Assembly: GCF_023913755.1 (NCBI RefSeq) | Contig: NZ_JAMXBJ010000046.1 | Coordinates: 101,923-165,922, forward strand | Direction of reading: 5' to 3' | Origin: Pseudarthrobacter cellobiosi | GTDB taxonomy: Bacteria; Actinomycetota; Actinomycetes; Actinomycetales; Micrococcaceae | DNA length: 64,000 nucleotides | In this document: positions 1 through 16,450 of the stretch, piece after piece | Position numbering within the stretch: position 1 is the first letter of the stretch | Layout: every line of letters starts with the position of its first letter | Notes under the pieces: generated by a model | The model's input: only the letters and a program-made list of their open reading frames with translations | Told to the model about the DNA's origin: nothing | Databases searched by the model: none | Made by a program: the position numbers and the translations under genes

Positions 1-115
1 GATCTGGGCCTGCTTCGTGGCCACCAGTGCAGCAAGCCAAGAACGACCAACAGCTATGACGACGAAAACGGGCGCGAAGTCGCCTCACTGATGCCCCATC
101 AAGAAGAGGAATGCT

Positions 116-1020
116 TTGACCAACCATCATCTTCCCCAGCTCCCCGATGCCAAGAAGCGCCGGCAGTCCGTCACGAACCTGCAGGACCGCCCCCCCGCGC
201 GCAAGTACTGATTATCGGTGGCGGTGTAAACGGAGTGGGTACCTTACGCGATCTCGCGTTGCAAGGCATCGACGTCGCCCTTGTGGAACGCGGCGACTTC
301 TGCCAGGGAGCATCCGGCGCCTCCTCGCACATGATTCACGGCGGGATCCGTTACCTGGAAAACGGGGAATTTCGCCTGGTGAAAGAATCTGTGACCGAGC
401 GCAACGCACTGCTCAACCTTGCTCCTCACTACGTCAAGCCGCTGAAGACCACGATCCCTATTTTCAGTACTTTCTCCGGAGTACTCGCTGCTCCCCTCCG
501 CTTCCTCACCCACAAACAGCAGTGCAGGCCGAAAGAGCGGGGAGCGTTCCTCATCAAGGTCGGATTAAGTCTTTACGATGCGTTTTCCAGGGATGGGGGT
601 TCGGTTCCCCGATATGAGTTCAAGGGACGCAAGAAAGCCCTGCGCGAGTTGCCTCGGCTCAATTCCGGGATTAAGTACACGGCCACCTACTTCGATGCAC
701 ACAATCCCGAACGAATGACGCTTGACCTCCTTCAAGACGGCGAGCGTACCAACGAGAACGCCCGGTCCTGCAACTACGTCAACGTATCGGGCATCCGCCA
801 GGACGGCATCGAACTGACCGATGAGCTGACCGGAGAATCCTTCACTTTCGCCGCCGACGTCATTGTTAACACCACAGGAGCATGGGTCGATCTGACCAAC
901 CAATCCCTCGGCGCTCCGACATCCTTCATGGGCGGCACTAAAGGTTCCCACATAGTGCTTGACCACCCTGAGCTGCTGAACGCGTGCAACGGCCGGGAAA
1001 TCTTCTTCGAGCACACAGAT
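116..1020 (+). pseudogene. glpD: glpD-like FAD glycerol-3-phosphate dehydrogenase, frameshifted and 3'-truncated
   Basis: Family role: oxidises glycerol-3-phosphate to dihydroxyacetone phosphate with FAD at the membrane. The N-terminal half is clear: the GGGVNG dinucleotide-binding loop, then GASGASSHMIHGG and RYLENGEF, all typical of GlpD. A TTG start at 116 after AGAGGA (105-110) opens the expected leader peptide, but a run of seven C at 190-196 throws it out of frame with the FAD loop, so the gene is frameshifted. An alternative in-frame start at 91 reads an unrelated leader. Homology stops at IFFEHTD (about 1020), where transposon sequence begins; the C-terminal half of the enzyme is not found in the window. 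Probably dead. A complete glpD elsewhere in the genome is possible but not visible. Confidence 0.85.
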
Positions 1021-1068
1021 GTGACTGTTGGTTCGAAATGGCGGTTTCTTCACAGCTCGCTTTGGCGG

Positions 1069-1823
1069 TTAGCTGATTCCTATTACGAGGGTTGAGCGTG
1101 CGGCCTCGATGACGTCGTCCGTGATCGTGTTGAGCTCGTTGATTTTCATGACCCGTTCGACCTGGGTGAAGAGCCGGTCGATGAGGCGGATGTTGCCGCG
1201 GGTGATCCGGGCGACGGCCGCGATGGCCTGGGCGTCGGTGAAGTCTTCCGGGTTCAGGGTCTGGCCAAGTTTGTGCCACCGGCGCTCCAGGACGAAGTGC
1301 AGTTCTTCCTGGGCGAGCGGACGGTATTCGTGGGCGAAGCCGACCCTGCTGTAGAGCTGTGCGTAGCGGCTGAACCATTTTTCGATCCCGGGCATCCCGA
1401 TGAGAATCAGGGCTATGTTGTCCCGGTCGTAGCGGTCACGCAACAGCTCCAGGGCCGTGGCGTTGAGCCGCTCGGATTCGTCAATGATGAGCAGCTCCAC
1501 ATGCTTGCCGGTGCGGGTGGGTGGTCCTGTCTTCTTGCCGATCTTTTCCAGATGCTGGTCAACACAGATCGATACGCGGGTGCTGATGTGCTCGAGTTCG
1601 GCATGGATCTGTTTGGGCGAGGTGAGCGCAGCGGGGGTGTAGAAGACGCTGCGTGCCCCGGGCCAGCGCTGCATAGATCTGGTAGTCAGAGTCGTCCCGG
1701 GGACCCCACTGATCAGGAGGTTCTCGGCCTTGTGCCAGTTTGCGTAGCGCCTGGCGGAGAGGGTCTTGCCGATTCCGCGAACCGGCGGTGCTCTTTCGTT
1801 GCGATGAAGCTCTGTGTAGTCAT
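1069..1823 (-). pseudogene. TniB/TnsC-like AAA ATPase, frameshifted
   Basis: Role in the family: an ATPase that selects the target and activates the transposase. The ATG at 1823 overlaps the TniA stop (ATGA), the usual coupling. The protein begins MTTQSFIATKEHRRF and then jumps to a Walker-A remnant GIGKTLSARRYANWHKAE in another frame, so a segment between the N-terminus and the P-loop is deleted. A second frameshift lies near 1670-1690, where DDSDYQIYAAL and ARSVFYTP are in different frames. From 1674 down the rest is intact, with Walker B LLIIDESERL, sensor region LILIGMPGIEKWFSRY and the winged-helix tail. Not functional as it stands. Confidence 0.8.
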
Positions 1824-2465
1824 TGGCCGTCCTCCAGGTAGGTGCTTAGCTTTGGGCGCTTCTTGGGTGGATCAACAGCGTCCGGGGCGGGAGTCGGTTT
1901 CGCTGATGCCAGGTCCGGCAGGTGCCGGGCCACGACTGCGATGCGCTGGTTGATTTGTCCGCGCAGTTCCCGGCGGCGGGCCGATCGCGCGGCCTGGATG
2001 TCTTTCAAAGTGAGAGTGGAGGTTTCATGGTCAGGGTCCACGGCCCTGCAGATGAACTGGTTCTTGTGGAAGACGCGGATCTCGGTGATGTCCCGCGGGT
2101 CGTAGCGGACGATGACCGGTTCTCGGACGTAGGCGGCCAGGAGTGGCGAGACGTATCTGAGCCCCTGGAAGTGCACGCCGTCGCGGTGGACGATCCGGGA
2201 TTTGGCCACGGTCAGCAACAATAGATTCAGTTCGTCCATGGTTGCCGGGAGCCTGGGCAGCCAGCCGTCGCCTACCCAGGCAAGATGCGGGGTGTCTTTG
2301 ATCTCGAGGTGCTCGCTCTGGCGGTAGTCATCCGTGATGAAACGGCAGATGGCCGTGTCTAGCTCTTTGAGGGTCAGCACCGGTGCCGGCTGCGGGTGTC
2401 CGCGGGTCAGGTGTCCGGGCAGTTCGGTCAACAGCTCGGTATTAACGCTGCCGGGTGGGTCGGCC
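1820..2465 (-). pseudogene. TniA/Mu-type transposase, C-terminal fragment
   Basis: Only the C-terminal part of a Mu-family integrase-core transposase remains: the helical region LTLKELDTAICRFITDDYRQ and the Mu C-terminal beta-barrel with SRIVHRDGVHFQGLRYVSP and VIVRYDPRDITEIRVF. These are the hallmarks of TniA and IS481-like Mu C domains. The catalytic DDE core and N-terminal DNA-binding domains are absent; upstream of about 2465 the sequence changes to intron-like DNA. The stop overlaps the ATPase start. The fragment cannot catalyse transposition. Confidence 0.8.
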
Positions 2466-2600
2466 ACGCGGCGAGGTGCCCTTGATGGGGTCCTTTTCCG
2501 CGTGGCCTCCCTCCGAACCGGACGTGCCAGTTTCCCGGCATCCGACTCTCCAATGATGTTGACGTGACGCCAGAAAACCCGCCTCATGAAAGATCGAGGC
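2466..2600 (-). mobile_element. Probable group II intron fragment
   Basis: Read on the minus strand, 2504-2552 gives GGAGAGTCGGATGCC, a GGGAAA loop, then GGCACGTCCGGTT and CGGAGGGAGG. This combination is what I remember as a conserved stem found upstream of the maturase gene in many bacterial group II introns. The following stretch (AAAGGACC...GGCACCTCGCC, ending near 2466) also fits. No maturase coding sequence is present. It sits exactly between the truncated transposase and the IS5 copy. The call rests on remembered consensus, so treat it as a hypothesis. Confidence 0.45.
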
Positions 2601-3512
2601 TAGGGCATGTCTCCTAATTCCTTGAGGCAGATGGTGATGGCGCGGAGCACAACTCCGCCGCGGTAGGTCAGGGCGGGCTTGTCGTCGCGGTGGCGAGGCC
2701 ACGCCATTTGCTTGAAGATGTTGAAGGACCGTTCGGCGACGTTTCGGCGCTTGTAGGCTTCCTTGTCCAGCCCTACTGGTCTGCTGCGGCGTTTGCGGTT
2801 CGCTTCCTGAACGGACCGTTCCGGGATCACCGCCTGGATGCCGCACCGGCGCAGAAGTTCCCTGTTGGCCTTTGAGGAGTAGGCCTTGTCCGCCAGGGCT
2901 CGGGCGGGAACGGGCCCAGCCCGGACCCAGCCGGGGAGCGCTGAGGGAGTCCAGCAGGTGCGGGAACATTGGGGAGTCCCCGCCCTGCCCGGGACCGAGC
3001 AACATGACCAGTGGGCGCATCTTGCCGTCGCAGAGGTGATGGATCTTCGTTGTCAGCCCGCCGCGGGATCTCCCGATCCCGTGGTCAGGCGGTTCCTCTA
3101 ACAGATTCATGTAATTCGACAGGTCCCCCTGTGTGGCGGGGAAGGTTCGTGGCGTGTTGGTGGGCCCGGTTGACCGTGGAGTCGAGGAGACTTCCCAGTC
3201 GGTCATCCCGGCCGCGTCGGCCTCCGCCAGGATCCGGGAGTGGATCTTGTCCCAGGTTCCGTCGCCGCTGAAGCGGCGGTGGCGTTTCCAGACTGTCTGT
3301 CACGGGCCGAAGGCCTCCGGCAGGTCGCGCCAGGGAATTCCCGCCCGGAAACGGTAGATAATGTCTTCGACGATCAGACGGTGGTCTTGGAACGGCCTCC
3401 CACGGCTCCCGTCGGAACTGGGCATCAACGGTTCAATCCGCTCCCATTGGGCATCGGGCAGGACGGGCAGTTCGCGACATGATTCCAGCATGCCAGAGCA
3501 GACAATAACCAA
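2600..3512 (-). pseudogene. IS5-family DDE transposase, multiply broken
   Basis: The N-terminal domain (LPDAQWERIEPLMP, then GRPFQDHR, YRFRAGIPWRDLPEAFGP) is followed by an in-frame TGA at 3300-3302 where a TGG tryptophan codon is expected before QTVWKRH. The catalytic segment with DSTVNRAHQHA lies in one frame, RSRGGLTTKIH in another and ADKAYSSKANRELLRR in a third; the C-terminal part with RRNVAERSFNIFKQ runs to the stop at 2600. At least one nonsense mutation and several frameshifts make it inactive. Start is a TTG near 3512 or ATG near 3491. Confidence 0.85.
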
Positions 3513-3548: not shown

Positions 3549-5486
3549 TCAGGGGAAGCTGGGTACGTAGCTGGGCACCCCGACGGCGTCCGTCGAGACC
3601 GGAGCGCCGGTGTCGTTGATGACGTGGTCCAGGGTTCCTGCGCCGAGGTTGACGGTCAGCAGGCTGTGGAGCTTCACTCCGGGTGTGACCGGTACTTCGA
3701 AGCCCCGGGTGGCGTGAATCGTGGGGTCGACGTTGTTGTAGACGTAGCTTCCCCCGCCCCAGAGTTCGTGGGTCTTGACGGAATCGGCGATTTTGTAGCC
3801 CGCCCAGCCAAGGACCCCGTCATGCTGCCAGGCTGCCTGGTTGGGAGCGTCGTAGGGCAGTTCGTTCTGGAAGAACACCGTCCTGCCGTGTTCGCCGTTC
3901 CAGATGACGTTGTACTGCTGGTAGTGCTCCACGAACAAGCCGGTGGCCGTGACGTGGTCGCCGTTGATGATGACGCCGTTGTCCCCCGTATTGGTGGTCC
4001 AGCCGACGCCGTTGCCGTGATCCGCCCGCCAGGCCCAGATGTGGTCCAGGAGCACGTTGTCGCTGTTGACTTCCAGGCTCACCGAGGCTTTGCCCACGTG
4101 CGGGCCGCCGATGCGGAAGAACACGTCGTGAAGCGTGGTGGGATTGGCCGGGTCGCTGTGATTCAGGGACTTCCGGGCTGCGCCGGCCTCAGGTTTAGCG
4201 GCCTTCCCGATTCGCATCAGCGCGGGCGAGTTGACCTCGCCCGCATCAACTGTGATGGCGGCGATATCGACGCCGGGGACATCCGCGACCGTCAGTGGCA
4301 CGGCGCCATTGACAGCCGTGAGGGTAGCCATGCCGAGTCCGAGCACAACCGTGTTGGCACGCTTGACCTCAATGCTTTGGTCGATGTCGTATACCCCGGG
4401 GGTCAGCAGCAGGTCCTTGCCGCGAGCCAGCTGGGAGTTGATGGTCTTGACTGAATCACCGGGCCTGGCCACGTAGAAGTCGGACAGCGGGATACTGCGG
4501 CCGGCCGTAGGGCCGTTTTCCCACGTCGTCCCGGCGGAGTCCTTGCGGACCGCGGGAACGAAGACGCCGTACTGGCCCGCGGCGTCGAGGGTGAGGTATG
4601 GCTTCTCCCGGCTGACCGGGGTGCTCGCCAGATTGGTGTACGGCGGATTCGGGAAAGACTGCTCCGGGGCGCCCTCCACTCCGGAGAAGACCTGATTCCA
4701 GACCCCGTTGGACCAGTCGCCGATGCTGCTGTCACGCACGAAGTACTGCTGCTGTGAACCGTTGATCACAGGGCCGGTCTTCGAGTCGGAAATGAAGCCG
4801 CCGCTGGCATACTGCGGTCCGGCGGTGCAGTAGTCCATGAGGGAAAGGTTGCCGCCGGTGACGTTGACCCGCCGCATGGGGGAGGCCTGCGAGGCAGCCC
4901 AGAAGTTGGCCGAACTGCGGCAGCCCTCGAGGCCGGTGACGTTGATGGTGAGGTTGGACAATGAGCGCCAAAAGTTGTTTAGGGCAATGCAGTTGTCCGC
5001 GGTCAGGCACCGGTTGTAGACGTCAACGTGCCCGTTGATGGTGACGTCCGTGGGTGAGGCGCCCAGGCCCGCGACCTCCGTCGAGTAGCCAACCTGGACA
5101 ATGAGGGGCTCCTCGGCGCTGCCGTAGGTTCCGGGCTTGAACAGCAGGGAATACCGCTTGGATCCCATTTCGTCGTCGACCTGTTCGGCCGCAATGGAGT
5201 CGACGGTGGCCTGGATATCGGCCACCGGCATGCTGGGGTCGAAGATTCGGACATTGGGGCCGAAGCCGGGGTCGCCCGCCTGCGGGGCGGCCGGGGCCTG
5301 GCGGGGTGCGGGCGCGGGGGTCTGCGGCGCTCCCGCCACCGAGGCAGCCGCAACGCCGCCGCCGCTGCCGATGAGGCCGATGAGGAGTGCGGCAGTGCCG
5401 GCAATGGACCGGATCCGGAGACGCCGCTGCTGCGGAACGTCGGCCGGGGTGCCCGCTGAACGAGCGGGGAAATGGGCTAGCGGCAT
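3549..5486 (-). CDS. Secreted right-handed beta-helix protein, probably beta-glucan-related
   Basis: A 645-aa exported protein. The start chosen is the ATG at 5486, because the open frame upstream runs through the control region and across the divergent lipoprotein gene. A signal peptide with a hydrophobic stretch AALLIGLIGSGGGVAAASVAG lies at about residues 30-50. The mature part has a pectate-lyase-3/GH55-like look: FKPGTYGSAEEPLIVQVGYSTEVAG, then repeated short turns such as NLTINVTGLEGC and NVLLDHIWAWRADHGNGVGW, consistent with two stacked beta-helix lobes. I recall homologues in Streptomyces and Arthrobacter annotated as coagulation factor 5/8 or adenylyl cyclase proteins, names that say little. 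The promoter carries the same palindrome as the importer operon and the GH81 gene. Enzyme activity is not assignable from sequence alone; a glycoside hydrolase or lyase on glucan is the best guess. Confidence 0.8.
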   Translation of the reverse strand: MPLAHFPARSAGTPADVPQQRRLRIRSIAGTAALLIGLIGSGGGVAAASVAGAPQTPAPAPRQAPAAPQAGDPGFGPNVRIFDPSMPVADIQATVDSIAAEQVDDEMGSKRYSLLFKPGTYGSAEEPLIVQVGYSTEVAGLGASPTDVTINGHVDVYNRCLTADNCIALNNFWRSLSNLTINVTGLEGCRSSANFWAASQASPMRRVNVTGGNLSLMDYCTAGPQYASGGFISDSKTGPVINGSQQQYFVRDSSIGDWSNGVWNQVFSGVEGAPEQSFPNPPYTNLASTPVSREKPYLTLDAAGQYGVFVPAVRKDSAGTTWENGPTAGRSIPLSDFYVARPGDSVKTINSQLARGKDLLLTPGVYDIDQSIEVKRANTVVLGLGMATLTAVNGAVPLTVADVPGVDIAAITVDAGEVNSPALMRIGKAAKPEAGAARKSLNHSDPANPTTLHDVFFRIGGPHVGKASVSLEVNSDNVLLDHIWAWRADHGNGVGWTTNTGDNGVIINGDHVTATGLFVEHYQQYNVIWNGEHGRTVFFQNELPYDAPNQAAWQHDGVLGWAGYKIADSVKTHELWGGGSYVYNNVDPTIHATRGFEVPVTPGVKLHSLLTVNLGAGTLDHVINDTGAPVSTDAVGVPSYVPSFP

Positions 5487-5567
5487 TGCTGGTCCTGTTC
5501 TCTGAGGGCGGGTTTCGTCGCGTTCGGCGGGAAAGGCGGTTGATCCCGACTGGACCACCACCGTAGT

Positions 5568-5615
5568 GGGAGCGCTCCCGCACTGGAGCGTAACATCGCC
5601 CCAGGCCCCGGGCAA
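5568..5615 (-). promoter_or_regulatory. Promoter and CebR-type operator of the beta-helix gene
   Basis: On the minus strand TTGCCC (5610-5615) and TACGCT (5587-5592) are separated by exactly 17 bp and form a good -35/-10 pair. Seven bases below the -10 lies the perfect palindrome GGGAGCGCTCCC (5568-5579), in the position where a LacI-family repressor would block initiation. The motif equals the core of the Streptomyces CebR box TGGGAGCGCTCCCA. Confidence 0.8.
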
Positions 5616-5643
5616 GGGTTTGCTACCCCGGAGGAGCCCGGCC

Positions 5644-5691
5644 TTGACAAGCGGATGTGAGGTGGGACACCATGTTCGTGAGAGCGCTCCC
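5644..5691 (+). promoter_or_regulatory. Likely promoter and CebR-type operator of the importer operon
   Basis: GAGAGCGCTCCC (5680-5691) is one base off a perfect palindrome and matches the operator of the GH81 gene exactly. TTGACA at 5644-5649 is a candidate -35; no convincing -10 lies at standard spacing (CATGTT at 5671-5676 is 21 bp away), so the promoter call is weaker than the operator call. The lipoprotein gene starts 102 bp downstream. Confidence 0.7.
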
Positions 5692-5793
5692 ATATGATCG
5701 CCCAGCCCGCAGACGGTGCGGCTGACCCCCCACCGGCCACGGCGACTTCCGGCGCTGTGAACCGGATGGAATCTTGACGAAGGAGTCTTCCCT

Positions 5794-7086
5794 GTGAAAA
5801 ACCCAAACAAGTTCTCTGTGCTGTCGGCTGCGGCCGCCTGCCTGGCCCTTTCGCTGACGGCCTGCGGTTCATCCGCCCCCGAGAAGGCCGGTGCGGACGG
5901 GGCCACCGGTTCCAAGCCGGTGACCCTGACGGTTGGCACGTTTAACGAGTTCGGCTACGAAAAGCTTTTTGAAGAATACGAAACGCTGAACCCCAACGTG
6001 ACCATCGAGCACAAGAAGGCCGCCACCACCAACGAAGCCCGGGACAACCTCACCACCCGGCTGGCCGCCGGCTCCGGATTGTCCGACATCGAAGGCGTCG
6101 AGGTGGACTGGCTGCCCGAGCTGCTGCAGTATCCGGACCGTTTTGCCGACCTAAGCGACCCCGCTGTTGAAGGACGCTGGCTGGACTGGAAGGCCGACGC
6201 TGCGAAGACTGCCGACGGGAAGCTTCTGGGCTACGGCACCGACTCCGGGCCCGAGGCGGTCTGCTACAACGCCGAGCTGCTCAAGAAGGCAGGCATGCCT
6301 ACCGAGCGCGGGGAAGTTGCGAAGATGCTGGGCACAACCTGGGACAGCTACTTCGAGGCCGGCAAGACATTCAAGGCCGCGAACCCGGGAGCGGCGTGGT
6401 TCGACTCCGCAGGAGCCATCTACCAGGGAATGAGCAACCAGCTCGAAAAGGCCTATGAGGAGGAGGACGGGACCGTCATCGCGACGGACAACGAGAAGGT
6501 CAAGGACACCTACAACCAGGTCCTGGAAGCCTCCACCGCGGACGGGCTTTCGGCCCACCTGGGCCAGTGGAGCGATGACTGGGCTTCCGGTTTCCAGACA
6601 GGCGCCTTCGCCACAACGCTTTGCCCGGGCTGGATGCTCGGGGTCATCGAGGGCAACGCGGCCGGAGTTACGGGCTGGGACGTGGCCAACGTCTTTCCCG
6701 GCGGCGGCGGAAACTGGGGCGGCTCCTACCTGACCGTCCCGACCCAGAGCGAGAACCAGGCCGAGGCCAAGAAACTGGCCGGCTGGCTGACCGCCCCCGA
6801 GCAGCAGGTCAAGGCTTTCACCGCAAAGGGCACCTTCCCGAGCCAGAAGGCGGCACTGGAAAGCAGTGAGCTGCTGGGCCAGACCAATGCGTTCTTCAAC
6901 GGTGCCCCCACCGGCAAGATCTTCGCCGAGCGGGCCAAGGCCGTCGAAGTGACGCCGTTCAAGGGCACCAAGTTCTTTGCCATCAACGACGCCATGCAGC
7001 AGGCCCTCACCCGTGTGGACGTTGACAAGACGGACGATGCAGCCTCCTCGTGGGAGAAGTTCGTCACTGCCGTGAAGTCCCTGTAA
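5794..7086 (+). CDS. ABC transporter sugar-binding lipoprotein (CebE-like)
   Basis: Extracellular solute-binding protein of 430 aa that delivers an oligosaccharide, here probably a beta-glucoside or laminari-oligosaccharide, to the two permeases that follow. GTG start at 5794 with GAAGGAG at 5779-5785. Signal peptide residues 1-24 end in the lipobox LTAC, giving a lipid-anchored Cys. The body shows the family-1 binding-protein pattern (LTVGTFNEFGYEKLFEEYE, NLTTRLAAGSG, FPGGGGNWGGSYLTVP). First gene of a five-gene operon; expression should respond to the repressor encoded at its end. No ATPase gene is present, so a shared MsiK-type ATPase elsewhere is expected. Ligand is inferred from neighbours. 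Confidence 0.9.
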   Translation: MKNPNKFSVLSAAAACLALSLTACGSSAPEKAGADGATGSKPVTLTVGTFNEFGYEKLFEEYETLNPNVTIEHKKAATTNEARDNLTTRLAAGSGLSDIEGVEVDWLPELLQYPDRFADLSDPAVEGRWLDWKADAAKTADGKLLGYGTDSGPEAVCYNAELLKKAGMPTERGEVAKMLGTTWDSYFEAGKTFKAANPGAAWFDSAGAIYQGMSNQLEKAYEEEDGTVIATDNEKVKDTYNQVLEASTADGLSAHLGQWSDDWASGFQTGAFATTLCPGWMLGVIEGNAAGVTGWDVANVFPGGGGNWGGSYLTVPTQSENQAEAKKLAGWLTAPEQQVKAFTAKGTFPSQKAALESSELLGQTNAFFNGAPTGKIFAERAKAVEVTPFKGTKFFAINDAMQQALTRVDVDKTDDAASSWEKFVTAVKSL

Positions 7087-7089
7087 GCC

Positions 7090-8085
7090 ATGACGGTTAC
7101 GGACCAGGTCAAGCCCGGGAGCGCCGGTGCTGAGGCACCTCCGCCGGACGCCGGCGGCAGGGGTGTCCGGCGTCTGGCCTTCTCCCAGCAGGTCTCCAAA
7201 TGGGACGTAAAACTCTCCCCCTACCTCTACATTTCCCCGTTCTTCCTGCTGTTTGGCGTCACGGGCCTCTTCCCGCTGCTCTACACGGGCTGGGTATCGC
7301 TGCACAACTGGAACCTCATCGGCGGGCAGGGGAAGTTCACGGGCCTGGAGAACTATGCGTTCGTCCTGGCGCAGCCCTACTTCTGGAACGCGGTCGGCAA
7401 CACCCTCAGCATCTTCCTCCTCTCCTCCGTGCCCCAGGTCATCATTGCCCTGGTGATAGCGGCGGTGCTGGACGCGAACCTGAGGGCCCGGACGTTCTGG
7501 CGGATGGGGGTCCTGGTTCCGTTCGTCGTCGCGCCGGTGGCGGTGGGCCTGATCTTCAACAACCTCTTCGCGGACCAGTTCGGCCTGGTCAATGAGATGC
7601 TGAAAGCTATTGGCCTGGACCCGGTCCGGTGGCATTCCGAGTCGCTCGCCAGCCACACGGCGATCGCCACCATGGTGAACTTCCGCTGGATCGGCTACAA
7701 CGCCCTCATCTTCCTCGCAGCCATGCAGGCGATCCCGCGGGATGTGTTTGAAGCTGCCACGATCGACGGCGCCGGCCGGCTGCGGCAGTTCTTCTCCGTC
7801 ACCGTACCCATGCTGCGGCCCACCGTGATCTTTGTGGTCATCACGTCCACCATCGGCGGACTGCAGATTTTCGATGAGGCGCGGGTCTTCGACCAGTCCG
7901 GGCTGGGCGGGGCCGACAGGCAGTGGCAGACCCTGACCATGTACATCTGGGAACTCGGCTGGGGCCAGCGGAACTTCGGCAGGGCCTCCGCCGTGGCGTG
8001 GCTGCTCTTCGTGATGATCGTGCTGATAGCCCTGCTCAACTTCATCATCACCAAGCGCATCGCAAGCCAGGGAGGCCGCAAATGA
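7090..8085 (+). CDS. ABC sugar permease, MalF/CebF type
   Basis: Membrane subunit of the beta-glucoside importer, 331 aa, starting 3 bp after the binding-protein stop. After a cytoplasmic tail of about 45 residues come six predicted membrane spans (for example LSPYLYISPFFLLFGVTGLFPLLY and VLVPFVVAPVAVGLIFNNLFA). The EAA loop that docks the ATPase reads EAATIDGAGRLRQFFSVTVPML near residue 220. The stop overlaps the next start (ATGA), so translation is coupled. Confidence 0.9.
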   Translation: MTVTDQVKPGSAGAEAPPPDAGGRGVRRLAFSQQVSKWDVKLSPYLYISPFFLLFGVTGLFPLLYTGWVSLHNWNLIGGQGKFTGLENYAFVLAQPYFWNAVGNTLSIFLLSSVPQVIIALVIAAVLDANLRARTFWRMGVLVPFVVAPVAVGLIFNNLFADQFGLVNEMLKAIGLDPVRWHSESLASHTAIATMVNFRWIGYNALIFLAAMQAIPRDVFEAATIDGAGRLRQFFSVTVPMLRPTVIFVVITSTIGGLQIFDEARVFDQSGLGGADRQWQTLTMYIWELGWGQRNFGRASAVAWLLFVMIVLIALLNFIITKRIASQGGRK

Positions 8086-8996
8086 GCTCCATCCCCATGA
8101 TCGAACAGAGCGCCGGCAAGGGCGCCGCCCGGGCCGCGGCACGGCGGGGGCCCGGCGCCGGGCACCGAACGGGCTCCTCCAGCGTCCGCCGGCCCGGGTT
8201 CCTGACGTACGGGTTCCTCGGCGCCGTTCTGCTCGCATCCCTTTTTCCCCTGTACTGGTCCTTCCTCGTAGGCAGCCATGACAACACCGTCCTGAGCCGG
8301 GGAATCCCGCTGCTGCCGGGCGGGAACTTCCTGGCCAACGCGGGGAAGGTCTTCGACAGCATCCCGTTCTGGAAGGCCATGGGCAACAGCCTCATCGTCT
8401 CCAGCGTGACGGCGGCATCCGTCGTGGTGTTCTCCACGCTCGCCGGGTTCGCCTTCGCGAAGCTTAGGTTCCGGGGGAGCAAGGGGCTGCTGGTTTTCGT
8501 TGTCGCCACCATGGCGGTCCCGACGCAGCTGGGTGTGGTCCCGCTGTTCATTGTGATGTCCAAACTGGGCTGGACCGGCTCGCTGTGGGCCGTCATCATT
8601 CCCGGTGTTGTCACGGCTTTCGGGGTGTTCTGGATGACCCAGTATCTCCGGGACGCCCTACCGGACGAGCTCATCGAGGCGGTGCGGATGGATGGCGCCT
8701 CGATGATCCAGGCCTTCTGGTACCTCGGATTCCCGGCCGCCCGGCCCGCGGCCGCCATGCTCGCCCTCTTCACGTTCGTAGCCACCTGGACAAACTTCTT
8801 CTGGCCGTTCATCGTCCTGGACCCCTCAAACCCCACCCTTCCGGTGGCACTGCAGCTGCTGCAGGCCGCACACTTTGTGGACTACTCGGTAGTTCTGGCA
8901 GGTGCGGTCCTGGCCACCGTTCCACTGCTGCTGTTGTTTGTCGCTGCCGGCCGCCAGCTCGTTTCCGGAATTATGCAAGGAGCAGTAAAAGGATGA
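8082..8996 (+). CDS. ABC sugar permease, MalG/CebG type
   Basis: Second membrane subunit, 304 aa. The ATG at 8082 overlaps the previous stop by 4 bp and is preferred to longer in-frame starts that would lie inside the upstream permease. A basic, Gly/Arg-rich N-tail of about 40 residues precedes six spans, starting with LTYGFLGAVLLASLFPLYWSF. The EAA loop EAVRMDGASMIQAFWYLGFP is near residue 200. Its stop overlaps the beta-glucosidase start by 4 bp. Confidence 0.9.
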   Translation: MSSIPMIEQSAGKGAARAAARRGPGAGHRTGSSSVRRPGFLTYGFLGAVLLASLFPLYWSFLVGSHDNTVLSRGIPLLPGGNFLANAGKVFDSIPFWKAMGNSLIVSSVTAASVVVFSTLAGFAFAKLRFRGSKGLLVFVVATMAVPTQLGVVPLFIVMSKLGWTGSLWAVIIPGVVTAFGVFWMTQYLRDALPDELIEAVRMDGASMIQAFWYLGFPAARPAAAMLALFTFVATWTNFFWPFIVLDPSNPTLPVALQLLQAAHFVDYSVVLAGAVLATVPLLLLFVAAGRQLVSGIMQGAVKG

Positions 8997-10477
8997 GTTC
9001 CACCCAATTTCCGTTTCCGCAGGGCTTTCTGTGGGGGGCAGCTACCGCTGCCTACCAGATCGAAGGCGCAGCGCACACCGACGGCCGGCAGGACTCCATC
9101 TGGGATACGTTCGCACGGATCCCCGGCGCCGTAGCAGACGGCCACAACGGCGATCTGGCCTGTGACCACTACCGTCGCTACAAGCAGGACGTGGCGCTCA
9201 TGAGCCACCTGAACATGAAGGCCTACCGGTTCTCCACGTCGTGGGCCCGCTGCATGCCCGACGGCGTCACCCCGAATCCCGAAGGCATCGCCTTCTACTC
9301 CCGGCTGGTGGATGAACTGCTGGCAGCCGGAATCACGCCCTGGCTGACCCTCTACCACTGGGACCTCCCCCAGGCCCTGGAGGACAAGGGCGGCTGGGCC
9401 GACCGGGACACCGCCTACCGCTTCGCCGAGTACGCAGCCCTCATGCATAACGCGCTCGGGGACCGGGTCCGGATCTGGACCACCCTCAACGAGCCGTGGT
9501 GCTCGGCTTTCCTCGGCTACGCGGCAGGCATCCACGCGCCGGGACGGCAGGACCCGCGGTCAGGGCTGGCTGCCGCCCACCACCTGCTGCTCGGTCACGG
9601 TCTGGCGGCCCGTGATCTCCGCAGCCAGGACCCGGATGCCACCCTGGGCATCACGCTGAACCTGACGGTCGCCGACCCGCGGGACCCCGACAGCGCCGGC
9701 GACCGCGACGCCGCGCGACGGATCGATGGCCAGTTCAACAGGATCTTCCTGGACCCGTTATGCAGGGGAGAGTATCCGGCCGACCTTCTGGCAGACGTGG
9801 CACACCTGGGAATAGCTGACTTCGTCCACGACGGGGACCTGGACATCATCTCCACCCCCGTGGACCTGCTCGGTGTCAACTACTACCACGGGGAATCGCT
9901 CACCAAAGACCCTGCGGACCCGGAGGACCACGCGGAGCAGAAGACGGCGGCGGACCCGGAACAGGCGGCCCGCCCGGTGTCCTCCCCGTTCGTGGCAGCC
10001 GACGGCGCGCGCTCGGTATCCCGCGGCCTGCCAGTGACGGGAATGGGCTGGGAAGTCCAGCCGGAAGGGCTGCGGCGCCTGCTCAACCGGCTGCAGGCCG
10101 AATACACCGGCCCGGCCGGGATTCCCATCTACATCACCGAGAACGGCGCAGCCTACGACGACGTCCCTGACGACGTAGGGTTCGTGGACGACCAGGACCG
10201 GCTGGGATTCTTTGCAGCCCACCTCCAGGCGGTGCACGGCGCCATCGCAGACGGCGTGGACGTCCGCGGGTACCTGGCCTGGTCGTTGCTGGACAACTTC
10301 GAATGGTCCTTCGGTTACCACCAGCGCTTTGGCCTGGTCCGGGTGGACTACTCAACCCAGGAACGCATCCCGAAAGCCAGCGCAGTGTGGTACGCGGCGG
10401 TGGCGGCCACCAACGCCATCCCGGTCGGCAGCATCCCCGTGCCGTCTTCGGAGTCTGGTGTCGTATTGTCTGTGTAA
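8993..10477 (+). CDS. bglA: GH1 beta-glucosidase
   Basis: Cytoplasmic family-1 glycoside hydrolase of 494 aa, no signal peptide. The N-terminal signature FLWGAATAAYQIEGA is present. The acid/base glutamate is E167 in TLNEPW and the nucleophile is E383 in ITENG; the aglycone-site motif SLLDNFEWSFGY is near the C-terminus. Family members release glucose from cello-, laminari- and gentio-oligosaccharides; here it would finish the sugars imported by the preceding transporter. Starts with ATGA overlap; its TAA shares a base with the ATG of the repressor gene. Gene symbol by analogy with CebR regulons. Confidence 0.93.
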   Translation: MSSTQFPFPQGFLWGAATAAYQIEGAAHTDGRQDSIWDTFARIPGAVADGHNGDLACDHYRRYKQDVALMSHLNMKAYRFSTSWARCMPDGVTPNPEGIAFYSRLVDELLAAGITPWLTLYHWDLPQALEDKGGWADRDTAYRFAEYAALMHNALGDRVRIWTTLNEPWCSAFLGYAAGIHAPGRQDPRSGLAAAHHLLLGHGLAARDLRSQDPDATLGITLNLTVADPRDPDSAGDRDAARRIDGQFNRIFLDPLCRGEYPADLLADVAHLGIADFVHDGDLDIISTPVDLLGVNYYHGESLTKDPADPEDHAEQKTAADPEQAARPVSSPFVAADGARSVSRGLPVTGMGWEVQPEGLRRLLNRLQAEYTGPAGIPIYITENGAAYDDVPDDVGFVDDQDRLGFFAAHLQAVHGAIADGVDVRGYLAWSLLDNFEWSFGYHQRFGLVRVDYSTQERIPKASAVWYAAVAATNAIPVGSIPVPSSESGVVLSV

Positions 10478-11538
10478 TGAACGAAAACACCCGCCGCCCT
10501 GCCCTCCTGCAAGCAGGGCGGCCCAGTCCGACGCTGGAGGATCTAGCCACGGCTGCCGGAGTGTCCCGCTCCACCGCGTCCAGGGCGATCAACGGCGGAC
10601 TGAAGGTCAGCCCCGCAGCCCAGGCCGCCGTTGACGCCGCGGTCGTGGCCCTCGGGTACACACCCAACCGGGCGGCGCGGAGTCTGGTAACAAAGCGCAC
10701 CGCTTCGGTTGCGCTGGTGATTCCGGAGCCCGACGCGCGGGTCATGATGGATCCCTTCTTCGCCGCCGTCATTACGGGCGTCAATGAGGCCCTCCGGGGT
10801 ACCGACATGCAGTTGGTGCTGCTGATGTCCCGCGCAGGCGATGACTCCGCGCGGACCATACGGTACCTGCGCGGCGGCCACGTCGACGGCGCCATTGTCG
10901 TCTCGCACCACAAGGGCGACGACTGGGCGGAGACGCTCGGGAGCACAGGCCTGCCGACCATCTTCATAGGCAGACCCTGGGATACGAGCTTCGGCGTTCC
11001 GTTTGTGGATCTGGACAATTTTGAAGGCGGCAGGTTGGCCGCACGGCACCTGGCCGGCATCGGACGCACCCGGCTTGGGACTGTGGCCGGACCTGTTGAC
11101 ATGCCCGCCGCAGCCGACCGTCTCGATGGATGGCTGCAGGGGTTGCGGGACGCCGGATTGCAGCCTGGGCCCGTCGTCCATGGGGACTTTACGACGCCGG
11201 GCGGTGCGGATGCCGCACGGCACCTGTTCACCGAGGCGCCGGAGCTGGATGGCGTTTTTGCCGCCTCGGACCTGATGGCGCTGGGCGTGATCGAGTTAGT
11301 GCGGAGCGGAGGCCGCAGGGTGCCGGAGGATGTAGCCGTCGTGGGGTTCGATAATCATGCTCTCCTGGCAGCCCACGGCTTGGGCCTGACCACGGTGACA
11401 CAGCCCATGGTGGACATGGCCGTGACGGCCGGGCAGCTCCTGATCCGTGCCATTGAAGATCCGGAGCTGCCTCTGGAGCCGGTTATCTACCCGGCCGAGC
11501 TCGTGGTGCGCGGCAGCACTGCAGGGCCAACCACTTAG
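10477..11538 (+). CDS. cebR: LacI-family repressor, CebR-like
   Basis: 353-aa transcription factor. The helix-turn-helix TLEDLATAAGVSRSTASRAINGG lies at about residues 19-41 and the hinge helix NRAARSLVTKRT follows near 66. The periplasmic-binding-like effector domain spans the rest, with FVDLDNFEGGRLAARHL and VVGFDNHALLAAHGLGLTTVTQP. Encoded last in the importer operon, so it is autoregulated through the operator at 5680-5691. The three GAGCGCTC-centred palindromes in this window are its obvious targets. In Streptomyces CebR is released by cellobiose; the effector here may instead be a laminari-oligosaccharide, which is inference. Confidence 0.88.
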   Translation: MNENTRRPALLQAGRPSPTLEDLATAAGVSRSTASRAINGGLKVSPAAQAAVDAAVVALGYTPNRAARSLVTKRTASVALVIPEPDARVMMDPFFAAVITGVNEALRGTDMQLVLLMSRAGDDSARTIRYLRGGHVDGAIVVSHHKGDDWAETLGSTGLPTIFIGRPWDTSFGVPFVDLDNFEGGRLAARHLAGIGRTRLGTVAGPVDMPAAADRLDGWLQGLRDAGLQPGPVVHGDFTTPGGADAARHLFTEAPELDGVFAASDLMALGVIELVRSGGRRVPEDVAVVGFDNHALLAAHGLGLTTVTQPMVDMAVTAGQLLIRAIEDPELPLEPVIYPAELVVRGSTAGPTT

Positions 11539-11597: not shown

Positions 11598-11642
11598 TTG
11601 CGCTTTCCAGCGGGGATGCCTACTCTGTGTGAGAGCGCTCCC
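11598..11642 (+). promoter_or_regulatory. Promoter and CebR-type operator of the GH81 gene
   Basis: TTGCGC (11598-11603) and TACTCT (11621-11626) are 17 bp apart. The operator GAGAGCGCTCCC (11631-11642) begins 4 bp after the -10, so it covers the expected start of transcription. It is identical over 12 bp to the operator of the importer operon. The GH81 start codon is 77 bp further on. Confidence 0.8.
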
Positions 11643-11718: not shown

Positions 11719-14700
11719 ATGACCATCCACCACAACGTCCGGGCACCAGGAGAGATCCGAAGGAGGGGAGGCACCACAGCCTCCCGGCTTGCCGTTCTCA
11801 GCGTCGCCGCCGTTCTCCTTGGCGGGCTTATCCCGGCCGGCGCGGCGCAAGCCGAGACCCTGCCCGCTGGCAGCGGCAGCTACACCACGGACACCATCGG
11901 CCCGGCTCCCGAGGGTTGCGCACCGCTGGCCACGGATGCCCGCGCCTACGTGACCGACACCGCCCCGGCCGGAGCTGTTCCCACCAATGACTGGTGGTCC
12001 TCGCTCCTCTTCAAGAAGTACAACTGCGTCGGCAGCGAGCCCCTGCACGCGCATCCGCTCTCCTACCTCCCCCAGGCCGCCGGCCTGGGACTCTCAAACA
12101 CCACGACGCCGACCATGAGCGGCACCCCGGGCGAAATCGGCGAGTTCCACTATGCCTACGCGCAGGACGTGACGGTCGGCGTCGCCGGGCTCACCGCCCC
12201 GGTCGTCGAGGTCGCCGACTGGACCGACTGGACTGTCACCCCCTCGTGGAGCGACGGCACCCGGTCGATGACCGCGACCATCGGCCACGGCCTGCCATTC
12301 AGCTGGTACGACATCGCCGGCGGAGACGCAGTCATCACCGCAGGAGCCGACCTGCGCGTCTGGCTCAATGACGGTGAGCGCATCGGGTTTAGCTCCGGCG
12401 GCGGGGACTACGTCGCGTTCGCCCCCACCGGCGGGGCCTGGACTGTCTCGGGCACGAAATTGAGCAGCACCCTCGACGGGAAGGGGTATCTCTCCGTGGC
12501 GGCACTGCCGACGAGCCCCACCGACACGGACGCGGCGCGCACCGCAGTCGCCGACAGCTACACGCCGTACGCGTACGCCAAGGTCACCGGAACCCGGGCT
12601 GATTTCGTCTATAACGAGGCCGGGAGCGTGGTTGAGACCACCTACTCGGCCGAGACTAAGGTGCAGGAGGGAGCCAACTCAGGCACCGTGCTGTCGCTCT
12701 ACCCGCACCAGAGCGCCTACCTCGATGGCGTGACCGGCGACGGACCATCGGCCGGAGCGACCCTGGACCGCACCTACGTGTCCCCCCGCGGGGCCATGAC
12801 CACGCTGGTCGGGGCAACCTCCTTCACCACGGCCACCCCCTTCACCGGGGTGCTGCCCGAGGTTCCCGCCGTTGCGACCGGGGCCGGTGACGCCAACGCC
12901 CGCCTGGACGCCCTGCTGGACCAGGTTGCGGCCGATCCGATGAGCATCGACAAGGACGACACCTACTGGACCGGCAAGGCCCTCGGTCGCGCCGCCCGCA
13001 TCGTGGAGATCGCCGACCAGCTCGACCGCACGGCCGTGCGCGACACGGCATTGGCCCAGATGAAGGAGACCCTCACCAACTGGTTCACTGCCTCACCCGG
13101 CGAGACCGAACAGGTCTTCTCCTACAACTCCAACTGGGGCACCCTCGTCGGGTTCCCGGCGTCGTACGGCTCCGATAAGGAGCTCAACGACCACCATTTC
13201 CACTATGGCTACTTCGTCGTGGCGGCTGCCACCCTGGCACGGTTTGAACCGGAGTGGGCAGCCGATGCGGCCTACGGCGGCATGGTGGATGAGCTGATCG
13301 CGGATGCGAATAACTTCGAGCGCGCCGATACCCGCTACCCGTACCTGCGCGACTTCGACATCTACGCCGGCCACGACTGGGCCTCCGGCCATGGCGCCTT
13401 CGGTGCCGGAAACAACCAGGAATCGAGTTCCGAGGGACAGAACTTCGCCAACGGCCTCATCCAGTGGGGAACGGCCACCGGCGACACCGCCACCCGCGAC
13501 GCCGGAATCTACCTCAATGCAACCCAGACCGCCGCCATCCAGCAGTACTGGTTCGATGAATCCGGCGCCATGCCCGACTCCTTCGGGCACACCACCGCGG
13601 GCATGATCTGGGGCGACGGCGGAACCTACTCCACGTGGTTCAGCGCCGAGGCCGAGATGATCCAAGGCATCAACACCCTGCCGATCACCGGCGGGCACCT
13701 CTACCTGGGCCTGCGCCCGGATGACGTTGTGTCCAACTTCGCCGAAATGGTCGACGTGAACAACGGCAACCCGACCGTCTGGCAGGACATCCTGTGGTCC
13801 TACCTGGCCCTCGGGGACGGGCTGGCAGCGCTTTCGGCACTGGATAACGACCGTGAATACCCCGAGGAGGAAGGGGAGAGCCGGGCCCACACCTATCACT
13901 GGATTGCCAACCTTGCAACGCTTGGAAACCTGGACAGCAGCGTCCACGCCGATGACCCGATGGCCGCCGTGTTCACGAAGGACGGCGCCAGGACCTACGT
14001 GGCGAGCAACATCACCCAGGAACCCCTCAAGGTCACCTTCTCCGATGGCACCGTGCTCGACGTCGCCGCCGGCAAGACAGTGACGTCCGGTGCGCAGACC
14101 TGGAGCGGTGGCGGAGCGCCGAGCGGCACGGAAGAGCCCACGGACCCCACGGACCCGCCCGCCCCGACCACCACCACGTTCTACCTCGGCACCGACGGAT
14201 CGTTCCTGTCCCAGCCCGGCACCGCGCCGGTGGCGACACTCGCACCCCGCAGCGGACCCGACGCCGTCGGTGATCCGACAACCGGCCTCACCCTAACGGC
14301 CGAAAACCTGAACGGCACTTTCGCGGGCAGCAGGACCGCGTTCGATATCGGTGTGGACACGGCAGGTGTCGGGAACGGAACGCGCATCAGGGTCTCATAT
14401 GACCTGACCGGCGACGGCACCTTCGACCGGATCGAAACCTACAACTATTTCCCCACCGACCCGGTGGCGGGATTTGAGCGGTACACCTCGGAGCTCGGCT
14501 TCACCTCCGTCGAAGGGGAGCTTGGAGCCTTGGTGGATGGTTCCATGAAGGTTGAGCTATGGAACGTCCTGGGCACTTCGCCGTCAACCATCGACTTGGC
14601 CACTTCGGTGGTCAAGGCACCCTTTGCAGGGCTCACCCTGACGGGCGGCGGTTCGGAGCCCGAGCCGGAGCCTTCAGGTCTGCCCGGTAGCCCCGCCGAA

Positions 14701-15252
14701 GTGAAGCTGACTCCTGTCAGTGGTTCCGCTATTGATGTCGTCTGGGCGGCCCCGACCGTCACCGGCACGGCTCCGGTCACTGACTACCGGCTGCAGTACC
14801 GTGCCACCGGTGCCACTGAGTGGGTGCCGGTGTATGACGCCGTAACGTCCACGCCGGGAGCCCGGATCCAAGGACTCAACCCCGGGACTGAATACCAGGT
14901 CCGGGTGCAGTCAGTCTCGGCAGCGGGGCTCGGCGAATTTTCCCAGCCGGTGGCGGCCAGCACCTCCCCGGCACCATCCGCCCCCCGCGGTGCGGTAATA
15001 AAGGTCCAGGGCAAGTCTTTGCTGGCGTCCTGGACCGCACCTGCCTCCGATGGCGGGTTTCCCATCACCGATTACCTGATTGAGACATCCACCGACGGCG
15101 TGAACTGGAAGACCTTCGGCGACGGGGTCAGTACCGCAACCAATACCAAGATCACGGGACTCCTCGGGAAAACCGAATACCTAGTGCGGATCGCCGCGGT
15201 CAGCGAGATCGGCACCGGAGCCTGGTTGACCACCAAGGCTACGACCAAGTAG
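11719..15252 (+). CDS. Secreted GH81 endo-beta-1,3-glucanase with beta-sandwich and two FN3 domains
   Basis: 1177-aa exported laminarinase-type enzyme cutting beta-1,3-glucans inside the chain. Start at 11719 follows AGGGAGAG; a Tat/Sec-like signal with RRRGG then LAVLSVAAVLLGGLIPAGAAQAE ends near residue 48. The GH81 domain covers about 75-780, with NDWWSSLLFKKYN at its start, the catalytic DHHFHYGYF aspartate and the SSSEGQNF glutamates. A Pro/Thr linker leads to a beta-sandwich of about 160 residues that may bind carbohydrate, then two fibronectin-III modules (about 990-1085 and 1090-1177). It has no C-terminal sorting signal, so it is released. It should supply oligosaccharides for the importer. 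Confidence 0.93.
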   Translation: MTIHHNVRAPGEIRRRGGTTASRLAVLSVAAVLLGGLIPAGAAQAETLPAGSGSYTTDTIGPAPEGCAPLATDARAYVTDTAPAGAVPTNDWWSSLLFKKYNCVGSEPLHAHPLSYLPQAAGLGLSNTTTPTMSGTPGEIGEFHYAYAQDVTVGVAGLTAPVVEVADWTDWTVTPSWSDGTRSMTATIGHGLPFSWYDIAGGDAVITAGADLRVWLNDGERIGFSSGGGDYVAFAPTGGAWTVSGTKLSSTLDGKGYLSVAALPTSPTDTDAARTAVADSYTPYAYAKVTGTRADFVYNEAGSVVETTYSAETKVQEGANSGTVLSLYPHQSAYLDGVTGDGPSAGATLDRTYVSPRGAMTTLVGATSFTTATPFTGVLPEVPAVATGAGDANARLDALLDQVAADPMSIDKDDTYWTGKALGRAARIVEIADQLDRTAVRDTALAQMKETLTNWFTASPGETEQVFSYNSNWGTLVGFPASYGSDKELNDHHFHYGYFVVAAATLARFEPEWAADAAYGGMVDELIADANNFERADTRYPYLRDFDIYAGHDWASGHGAFGAGNNQESSSEGQNFANGLIQWGTATGDTATRDAGIYLNATQTAAIQQYWFDESGAMPDSFGHTTAGMIWGDGGTYSTWFSAEAEMIQGINTLPITGGHLYLGLRPDDVVSNFAEMVDVNNGNPTVWQDILWSYLALGDGLAALSALDNDREYPEEEGESRAHTYHWIANLATLGNLDSSVHADDPMAAVFTKDGARTYVASNITQEPLKVTFSDGTVLDVAAGKTVTSGAQTWSGGGAPSGTEEPTDPTDPPAPTTTTFYLGTDGSFLSQPGTAPVATLAPRSGPDAVGDPTTGLTLTAENLNGTFAGSRTAFDIGVDTAGVGNGTRIRVSYDLTGDGTFDRIETYNYFPTDPVAGFERYTSELGFTSVEGELGALVDGSMKVELWNVLGTSPSTIDLATSVVKAPFAGLTLTGGGSEPEPEPSGLPGSPAEVKLTPVSGSAIDVVWAAPTVTGTAPVTDYRLQYRATGATEWVPVYDAVTSTPGARIQGLNPGTEYQVRVQSVSAAGLGEFSQPVAASTSPAPSAPRGAVIKVQGKSLLASWTAPASDGGFPITDYLIETSTDGVNWKTFGDGVSTATNTKITGLLGKTEYLVRIAAVSEIGTGAWLTTKATTK

Positions 15253-15845: not shown

Positions 15846-16450
15846 ATTGGGTACGCCCGCATCTCGACCGCGAAACAGGACCTCGACCGGCAGATCGACG
15901 CACTGCGCAGCGAAGGCATCCCTGCCCGGCACATTTACGTGGACAAGAAATCCGGATCCACCGCAAACCGGCCTGGACTTCATGAAGCACTCGACCAGGC
16001 CCGCGACGGGGACGTGATCGTGGTGCACACCCTGGACCGGTTGGGCCGCACCGTCCGCGACACCCTGAACCTCATCCACGACCTGGCCGGTCGCGGCGTC
16101 GGAGTCCGGAACCTGGCTGACCCGATCCGGGTTGATTCCGCCAAACCGGAGGATCCCATGTCGCAGCTGGCAGTTGTGATGCTCGCGCTCTTCGGCCAAA
16201 TGGAACGAACCTACGCGATCGAACGCGCAGCCCACGCGCGTGCCGTTGCTGCCGCTAAAGGCAAGAGGATCGGCCGCCCCAGCGTGGTCGATCCAGCGAA
16301 ACTCGCCTACGCCGCGCACCTTCGCGACCAGGAAAATCAGTCCATCTCCGAGATCGTCAAAGCCACCGGTGTCAGCGCTCCAGCCTCTACCGTTACCTGC
16401 CGCCCCGACCACCGGAGACGCTGACCGCCGATGACCAGCCGAAAGCCTAA
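15846..16450 (+). pseudogene. Serine recombinase (Tn3-type resolvase/invertase), frameshifted
   Basis: The catalytic domain is recognisable: IGYARIST with the nucleophilic Ser, QDLDRQIDALRSEGIPARHIYVDKKSGS, then VVHTLDRLGRTVRDTLNLI and the E-helix MLALFGQMERTYAIERAAHARA. No ATG or GTG exists upstream in frame before a stop at 15813, so the start codon is lost or is the ATT at 15846. In the C-terminal helix-turn-helix a missing base near 16376 moves SSLYRYLPPRPPETLTAD out of frame. Two defects suggest a pseudogene. The family cuts res or inversion sites; repeated sequences follow directly at 16470. Confidence 0.8.

Follow-up and report, generated by a model that had tools for sequence, protein, structure and literature searches.

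A family 55 glycoside hydrolase with leucine in place of a published relay residue, encoded at a LacI-linked glucan locus

Genes and operators of the locus

We analysed a stretch of 64,000 nucleotides from Pseudarthrobacter cellobiosi (the window), in which a minus-strand ATG-to-stop frame of 645 codons, running from position 5486 to 3549, encodes a protein of glycoside hydrolase family 55 (GH55). Its N-terminus, read from the sequence without a signal-peptide program, combines a hydrophobic stretch that resembles a signal peptide with a Pro/Ala linker. The MPLA start region is common to the window protein and the six near orthologues with a readable N-terminus (L006, L007, L008, L042, L043 and L045). 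The closest named relatives, among the best 80 of 566, belong to Arthrobacter and Pseudarthrobacter.

The first-pass annotation had described a 645-residue beta-helix protein divergent from an importer, with operators between the two. The frame and its double beta-helix model bear out the first point, and the second holds as well, since two palindromes lie between the GH55 gene and the importer's binding-protein gene, which starts at 5794 (Table 1). A Pfam search of seven locus proteins found no ATPase for the importer.

Table 1. Features of the window and of two related loci (positions in the window unless a locus is named; a dot marks features given without strand)
Feature	Position	Strand	Basis and remarks
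GH55 gene, predicted beta-1,3-glucanase	3549..5486	-	645 aa; frame, homology, model
Signal-like N-terminus and linker; double beta-helix	GH55 protein, residues ~1-71; 72-645		sequence and model
Codon of Glu542 (SacteLam55A Glu502, general acid)	3861..3863	-	computed from frame, checked on DNA
Codon of Leu169 (SacteLam55A Thr149, replaced relay residue)	4980..4982	-	computed from frame, checked on DNA
Operator TGGGAGCGCTCCCG	5567..5580	.	~85 bp before GH55 start codon; GGGAGCGCTCCC at 5568-5579
Operator TGAGAGCGCTCCCA	5679..5692	.	~105 bp before binding-protein start codon; GAGAGCGCTCCC at 5680-5691
ABC importer solute-binding protein (SBP_bac_8)	5794..7086	+	Pfam; divergent from GH55 gene
ABC importer permease 1	7090..8085	+	Pfam
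ABC importer permease 2	8136..8996	+	Pfam; stretch searched, true start may be further upstream
GH1 hydrolase (beta-glucosidase type), presumably cytoplasmic	8993..10477	+	Pfam
LacI-family regulator, likely repressor of the locus	10519..11538	+	Pfam; stretch searched, true start may be further upstream
Operator GAGAGCGCTCCC, third copy	11631..11642	.	before GH81 gene
GH81 glucanase with fibronectin type III domains, presumed secreted	11719..15252	+	C-terminal domain model matched
Deinococcus GH55-LacI gaps with TAGCGCTA	L138:3364-3809; L139:138-437

Each of the two intergenic 14-mers equals TGGGAGCGCTCCCA with one mismatch and is thus a putative site of the CebR/LacI type. The three operators of the locus are the best three of six window matches at up to two mismatches. 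The loose pattern is not enriched in the window (6 found, 11.3 expected); the strict form GRGAGCGCTCYC occurs at six sites in the 4.3-Mb genome, compared with none for the reversed control, and three of the six are those of the glucan locus. Of the other three sites, one lies inside a frame that we take to be a response regulator, one before a frame of no known function and one after two converging frames, and no hydrolase or importer gene follows any of them among frames of at least 150 aa or at least 200 aa. No sigma-70-like promoter was found in 5400-5900.

At window positions 91-2587, the frame of an FAD-dependent oxidoreductase, presumably resembling a glycerol-3-phosphate dehydrogenase, stops short and looks cut by an insertion; it borders on a minus-strand element that contains an AAA_22 frame as well as a Mu-transposase C-terminal frame (Pfam). 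Directly behind the 3' end of the GH55 gene, the minus-strand stretch 2442-3500 is what we take to be the remains of a second insertion element; its frame 2442-3206 matches no Pfam family at E up to 0.001. A frame with a resolvase N-terminal domain follows GH81 (15939-16424), so that remains of mobile elements flank the glucan locus on both sides.

Family, fold and active site

A phmmer search against solved structures aligned residues 63-645 of the window protein with 4pew (E 4.1e-177, 54% identity), which by its PDB title is SacteLam55A, the GH55 enzyme of Streptomyces sp. SirexAA-E (4pew, 4pex and 4pey). An E502A variant is also among the entries matched in the structure search; in the phmmer alignment, the Glu shared by 4pew and the window protein is Ala in 4pex.

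The AlphaFold2 model, built on 57 sequences (pLDDT 87.2, pTM 0.86), superseded an earlier one built on 11 (pLDDT 79.2) and shows the GH55 rib cage of two joined beta-helix domains. Residues 72-645 superimpose on 4pew, 4pex and 4pey over 543 residues with an rmsd of 1.2 Å (Z 59.5), residues ~1-71 are modelled at pLDDT below 50, and the block 161-170 has a mean pLDDT of only 76. The next matches are the fungal GH55 structures of MnLam55A, PcLam55A and CtLam55 (8jhh, 3eqn and 5m5z; Z 26.4-27.1), which share the double beta-helix but have longer chains and only 15-20% identity to the window protein, followed by other beta-helices at Z of 18.0 or less. The structure prediction and fold search that the first-pass annotation had proposed thus led to a GH55 fold, and not to a structure unlike any glycan-active one.

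GH55 identity rests on the match to SacteLam55A in sequence and structure, since the family libraries gave no usable assignment: PF12708 (Pect-lyase_RHGA_epim) reached 18.8 bits, under its curated cut-off of 27, the other two Pfam matches were weak and irrelevant, as was the single NCBIfam match, and PHROGs gave no match. The window protein has full-length homology to a characterised member of GH55_1, the subfamily in which passages of PMC10461819 lead us to place SacteLam55A.

The name "adenylyl cyclase", which the first-pass annotation mentioned, does occur: it stands on four (H1, H3, H15 and H17) of 18 plasmid records with a relative, whereas two read "glycoside hydrolase family 55 protein" and the remainder bear other names or none. 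As an identity for the window protein, a cyclase has practically no chance of being correct, given that the predicted fold is that of GH55 and that two relatives in the same plasmid list are already named as such. Pfam and NCBIfam yielded no nucleotide cyclase family for the window protein at E up to 1, and we reject the cyclase identity; the name itself is wrong. Our literature search found nothing that pairs "adenylyl cyclase" with GH55, and a direct search found nothing that combines Lam55A, Arthrobacter and GH55.

For SacteLam55A, the relevant passages of PMC10637969 give Glu502 as the general acid, Tyr505 as the residue that orients it, Thr149-Ser198-Gln174-Glu480 as the proposed water relay and Phe152/Trp444/Trp446 as an aromatic block. 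Our numbering of SacteLam55A uses an offset of 44, consistent with a chain range ending at 605; under the same numbering, the crystal sequence has Trp143 and Phe144 where PMC10637969, in the text available, prints Phe-143 and Trp-144. The alignment equates Glu542 of the window protein with Glu502 and Tyr545 with Tyr505, as in GH55_1. Except at the Thr149 place, the aromatic block and subsite -1 residues are kept (Phe172, Trp484, Trp486, Asp489, Glu520 and His521). At the places of Thr149, Gln174, Ser198 and Glu480, the window protein has Leu169, Gln200, Ser228 and Glu520; three of the four relay residues are thus retained and the complete SacteLam55A-type relay is not present. With Leu at this position, the catalytic water cannot be activated in exactly the same way as in SacteLam55A. 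The four-residue relay is a mechanism and does not define family GH55: MnLam55A has Glu where the window protein has Leu. According to parts of PMC10637969, MnLam55A shares the general acid, the Tyr and the aromatic block.

There are further differences from SacteLam55A: Cys160/Leu161 stand in place of the Trp143/Phe144 plug beside subsite -1, Asn170 replaces Gln150, Pro224 replaces Tyr194 and Tyr226 replaces Trp196, and the window protein has four cysteines (160, 166, 189 and 220) that SacteLam55A lacks.

To place these residues in the family, we aligned 116 bacterial proteins: the window protein, 34 from further genomes, SacteLam55A and those of 80 named loci, which were the best 80 of 566 confirmed relatives in similarity to the window protein. 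Three entries were left out beforehand: L005, which is the window itself, L016, a C-terminal fragment, and L041, a partial match that shows Gln at the Glu502 place and Val at the Tyr505 place, both past the end of its matched part. Phe152, Gln174, Ser198, Trp444, Trp446, Asp449, His450, Glu480, His481, Glu502 and Tyr505 (SacteLam55A numbering) are invariant in all 116. Position 149 takes two states, Leu (95 proteins) and Thr (21 proteins), a ratio that is not a census because the sample leans towards the window protein.

A glucan-binding or inactive GH55-like protein is conceivable, since one published relay residue is replaced by Leu and, according to passages of PMC10461819, the divergent third GH55 subfamily showed no activity. 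We consider it very improbable: the general acid and the Tyr, Gln, Ser, Glu and His of the active site do not vary among the 116 proteins, and the sequence is close to that of the active bacterial enzyme SacteLam55A. The window protein is, then, a GH55 member by sequence, fold and active-site residues, and its activity is not "unassigned", as the first-pass annotation had it. The same annotation proposed a new glycan-active enzyme or binding protein; the glycan-active part stands, a role in binding only is improbable, as the protein retains its catalytic residues, and the novelty is not supported. The enzyme is an ordinary one of an already-known kind, except for the feature of the Leu subgroup.

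One branch separates the Leu from the Thr proteins (SH-aLRT 98; quick tree, midpoint root). Within the same sample, the plug is missing from the Leu group (Trp143 in 0 and Phe144 in 1 of 95), in which position 194 is Pro in 93 of 95 and position 196 is Tyr or Phe in all 95; cysteines 160/166 occur in 90 and 189/220 in 93 of the 95, and none of the four in the 21 Thr proteins. Median pairwise identity is 61% between Thr proteins and 49% between Leu and Thr proteins. On the quick midpoint-rooted tree, L037 and L038, both with Leu149, are long-branched and fall next to the Thr group; their 143-149 region is longer and different, and their genomes (G463 and G420) also hold a Thr-type copy.

Five further relatives from the 18 plasmid records divide likewise, with Leu149 in L137, L138 and L140 and Thr in L139 and L141. 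L137 (3878-5743), a Novosphingobium protein annotated as adenylyl cyclase, keeps Glu480, His481 and Glu502 and has Glu, Phe and His at the places of Gln174, Ser198 and Tyr505.

The Leu subgroup departs consistently from the published relay, and of all the results here it most deserves the attention of specialists. Judging from the residues retained, its relay would work with three residues or with another partner. Among the matches listed for a literature search on GH55, proton relay and leucine, only PMC10637969 has both GH55 and the proton relay; a Leu variant may still be published.

Linkage to the local LacI regulator

Among 101 congeneric genomes, 23 have both the GH55 and the LacI gene, one has GH55 only, none has LacI only and 77 have neither (GH55 at E up to 1e-100 and LacI at E up to 1e-110, cut-offs of our own choosing). 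The LacI search scored at most 21 candidates per genome, and a LacI-only genome could thus have been missed. The sole GH55-only genome, G629, holds a copy with 66% identity, and G641, which is 79% complete, gave only a partial GH55 match. Fisher's p for the co-occurrence is 7e-22, which is only indicative because related genomes share ancestry and are not independent events. In 22 of the 23 genomes, LacI lies on the 5' side of GH55 on the opposite strand, with a spacing between the matched stretches of 211 bp in one, 232 bp in one and 5.0-6.1 kb in twenty; in G651, GH55 and LacI sit on separate contigs.

Named loci, again the best 80 of 566, preserve the arrangement to different extents. The block of importer, GH1 and LacI genes lies beside GH55 in L042, L043 and L045, whereas in L044 and L046 only LacI directly adjoins GH55 and the 10-kb flanks contain no match to the importer. 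Weaker single neighbour matches occur in L056, L075, L078, L107 (LacI, 45%) and L109, and the other 70 have no importer, GH1 or LacI match above 90 bits, some of their flanks being short. Of six genomes searched for GH81, only that of the window yielded it, and the gene seems to be a local addition that bears the same operator.

The operator follows the near relatives of the GH55 gene. It is found within one mismatch before GH55 in 10 of 10 near (Arthrobacter-type) loci, the window included. Among 82 of 83 farther Leu relatives, those with a readable upstream region, it occurs with up to one mismatch in two and with up to three in 30 (control mean 8.4); of 20 Thr-group loci, none has it at up to two mismatches and four have it at up to three (control mean 1.7). 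The controls were permuted palindromes of the same letters with the true one included, and hence the maxima for the near set equal the observed count.

A sister form, AGAGAGCGCTCTCA, occurs exactly in 11 of the 82 farther Leu relatives and in 2 of the 20 Thr-group loci. Upstream of the GH55 genes of Micromonosporaceae, we observed it or a one-letter variant in L061-L065, L068, L069, L072, L076, L077, L087, L094 and L103, exact in 11 of these and as the variant in L062 and L069. In two Deinococcus plasmids (L138 and L139), a LacI gene is divergent from GH55, and another palindrome, TAGCGCTA, occurs twice per gap.

Passages of PMC4898821 describe TGGGAGCGCTCCCA as the CebR site of Streptomyces, responsive to cello-oligosaccharides, and the operator is a likeness between this locus and CebR-type LacI regulation in actinobacteria; the inducer here thus need not be a beta-1,3-glucan product. 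Unlike in CebR-type systems, the LacI gene lies within the locus, beside the beta-1,3-glucan enzyme families GH55 and GH81. One could suppose that GH55 answers to a distant CebR-type cellobiose regulator instead of the local LacI, since the operator departs from the CebR box at a single base and the genome, counting the local LacI itself, has 20 matches to that regulator at E up to 1e-20. This is improbable: the strict sites number only six in the genome, half of them here and the others not before hydrolase or importer genes, GH55 is co-inherited and linked with the local LacI, and L044 and L046 keep LacI at the side of GH55 although their 10-kb flanks gave no importer match. Control of GH55 by the local LacI is well supported, and GH55 is probably switched together with the adjoining sugar importer. 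Operator and co-inheritance support the glucan-type control under which the first-pass annotation had placed the gene.

Proposed function and mode of action

Our reading is that the protein is very probably a secreted, inverting beta-1,3-glucanase of the bacterial GH55 subfamily, controlled together with the importer operon and GH81 by the local LacI. From the known activity of GH55, its substrate would be the beta-1,3-glucan of fungi and algae. Glu542, held by Tyr545, would serve as the general acid, and Gln200, Ser228 and Glu520 would activate the attacking water. Phe172, Trp484 and Trp486 would form a dead-end pocket, making the removal of glucose from non-reducing ends the likelier mode. 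GH81 is an endo-acting family, and the GH81 enzyme of the locus could supply new chain ends for GH55. Glucan products would enter through the neighbouring ABC importer, and the GH1 enzyme would then cleave them. The local LacI would bind the TGGGAGCGCTCCCA-type operators until a glucan oligosaccharide frees GH55, the importer operon and GH81 together.

Exo action is somewhat favoured because the aromatic block, which caps subsite -1, is intact. However, the endo enzyme MnLam55A also keeps this block (PMC10637969, in the passages available), and parts of PMC10461819 state that exo or endo mode is not tied to GH55 subfamily. It is a real possibility that the window enzyme is endo-acting: with Cys160/Leu161 at the plug places, in a subgroup that lacks the plug, the cleft would be open beyond subsite -1 and the enzyme would cut inside branched beta-1,3/1,6-glucan, as MnLam55A does. 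A passage of PMC10637969 ascribes the missing -2 space of SacteLam55A to residues 143, 144 and 150. On the other hand, the loop with two conserved cysteines that takes the place of the plug may fill the same space.

ALam55A, a commercial GH55 enzyme from a bacterium named Arthrobacter, bears on the same question. The passages of PMC8254974 at hand class it under the endo number EC 3.2.1.39, in contrast to the exo mode that we rate as somewhat the likelier for the window enzyme, and this speaks against simply assuming exo action; ALam55A may, however, belong to either the Leu or the Thr subgroup. It degraded 37% of the fission-yeast cell wall, too little in the authors' judgement (PMC8254974, same passages). 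We presume ALam55A to be the enzyme from Arthrobacter sp. NHB-10 described in Okazaki 2007; PMC8254974, in the part available, cites the NHB-10 cloning paper. According to part of PMC6100237, which gives AB289602 as the accession of the NHB-10 enzyme, the latter shares 57% identity with an enzyme of Streptomyces, a value compatible with either subgroup.

Exo action thus remains our preferred mode for the window enzyme. Tentatively, and with more doubt than confidence, Leu, as opposed to the Thr of the Streptomyces type and the Glu of MnLam55A, may mark a mechanistic subgroup that makes up a large bacterial share of GH55, in which a two-cysteine loop replaces the Trp-Phe plug and a minus-side pocket opens, as in fungal enzymes, for branched or internal beta-1,3/1,6-glucan. 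If so, the four-residue relay of SacteLam55A would be no general rule of GH55, and the switch between exo and endo action would map to the cysteine loop.

With the assignment to GH55, a gene that occurs in several bacterial phyla gains a concrete function in place of a misleading "adenylyl cyclase" label, and a beta-1,3-glucan uptake locus becomes coherent, together with its operator. The Leu/Thr split offers a cheap way into how GH55 enzymes activate water and what sets exo against endo action.
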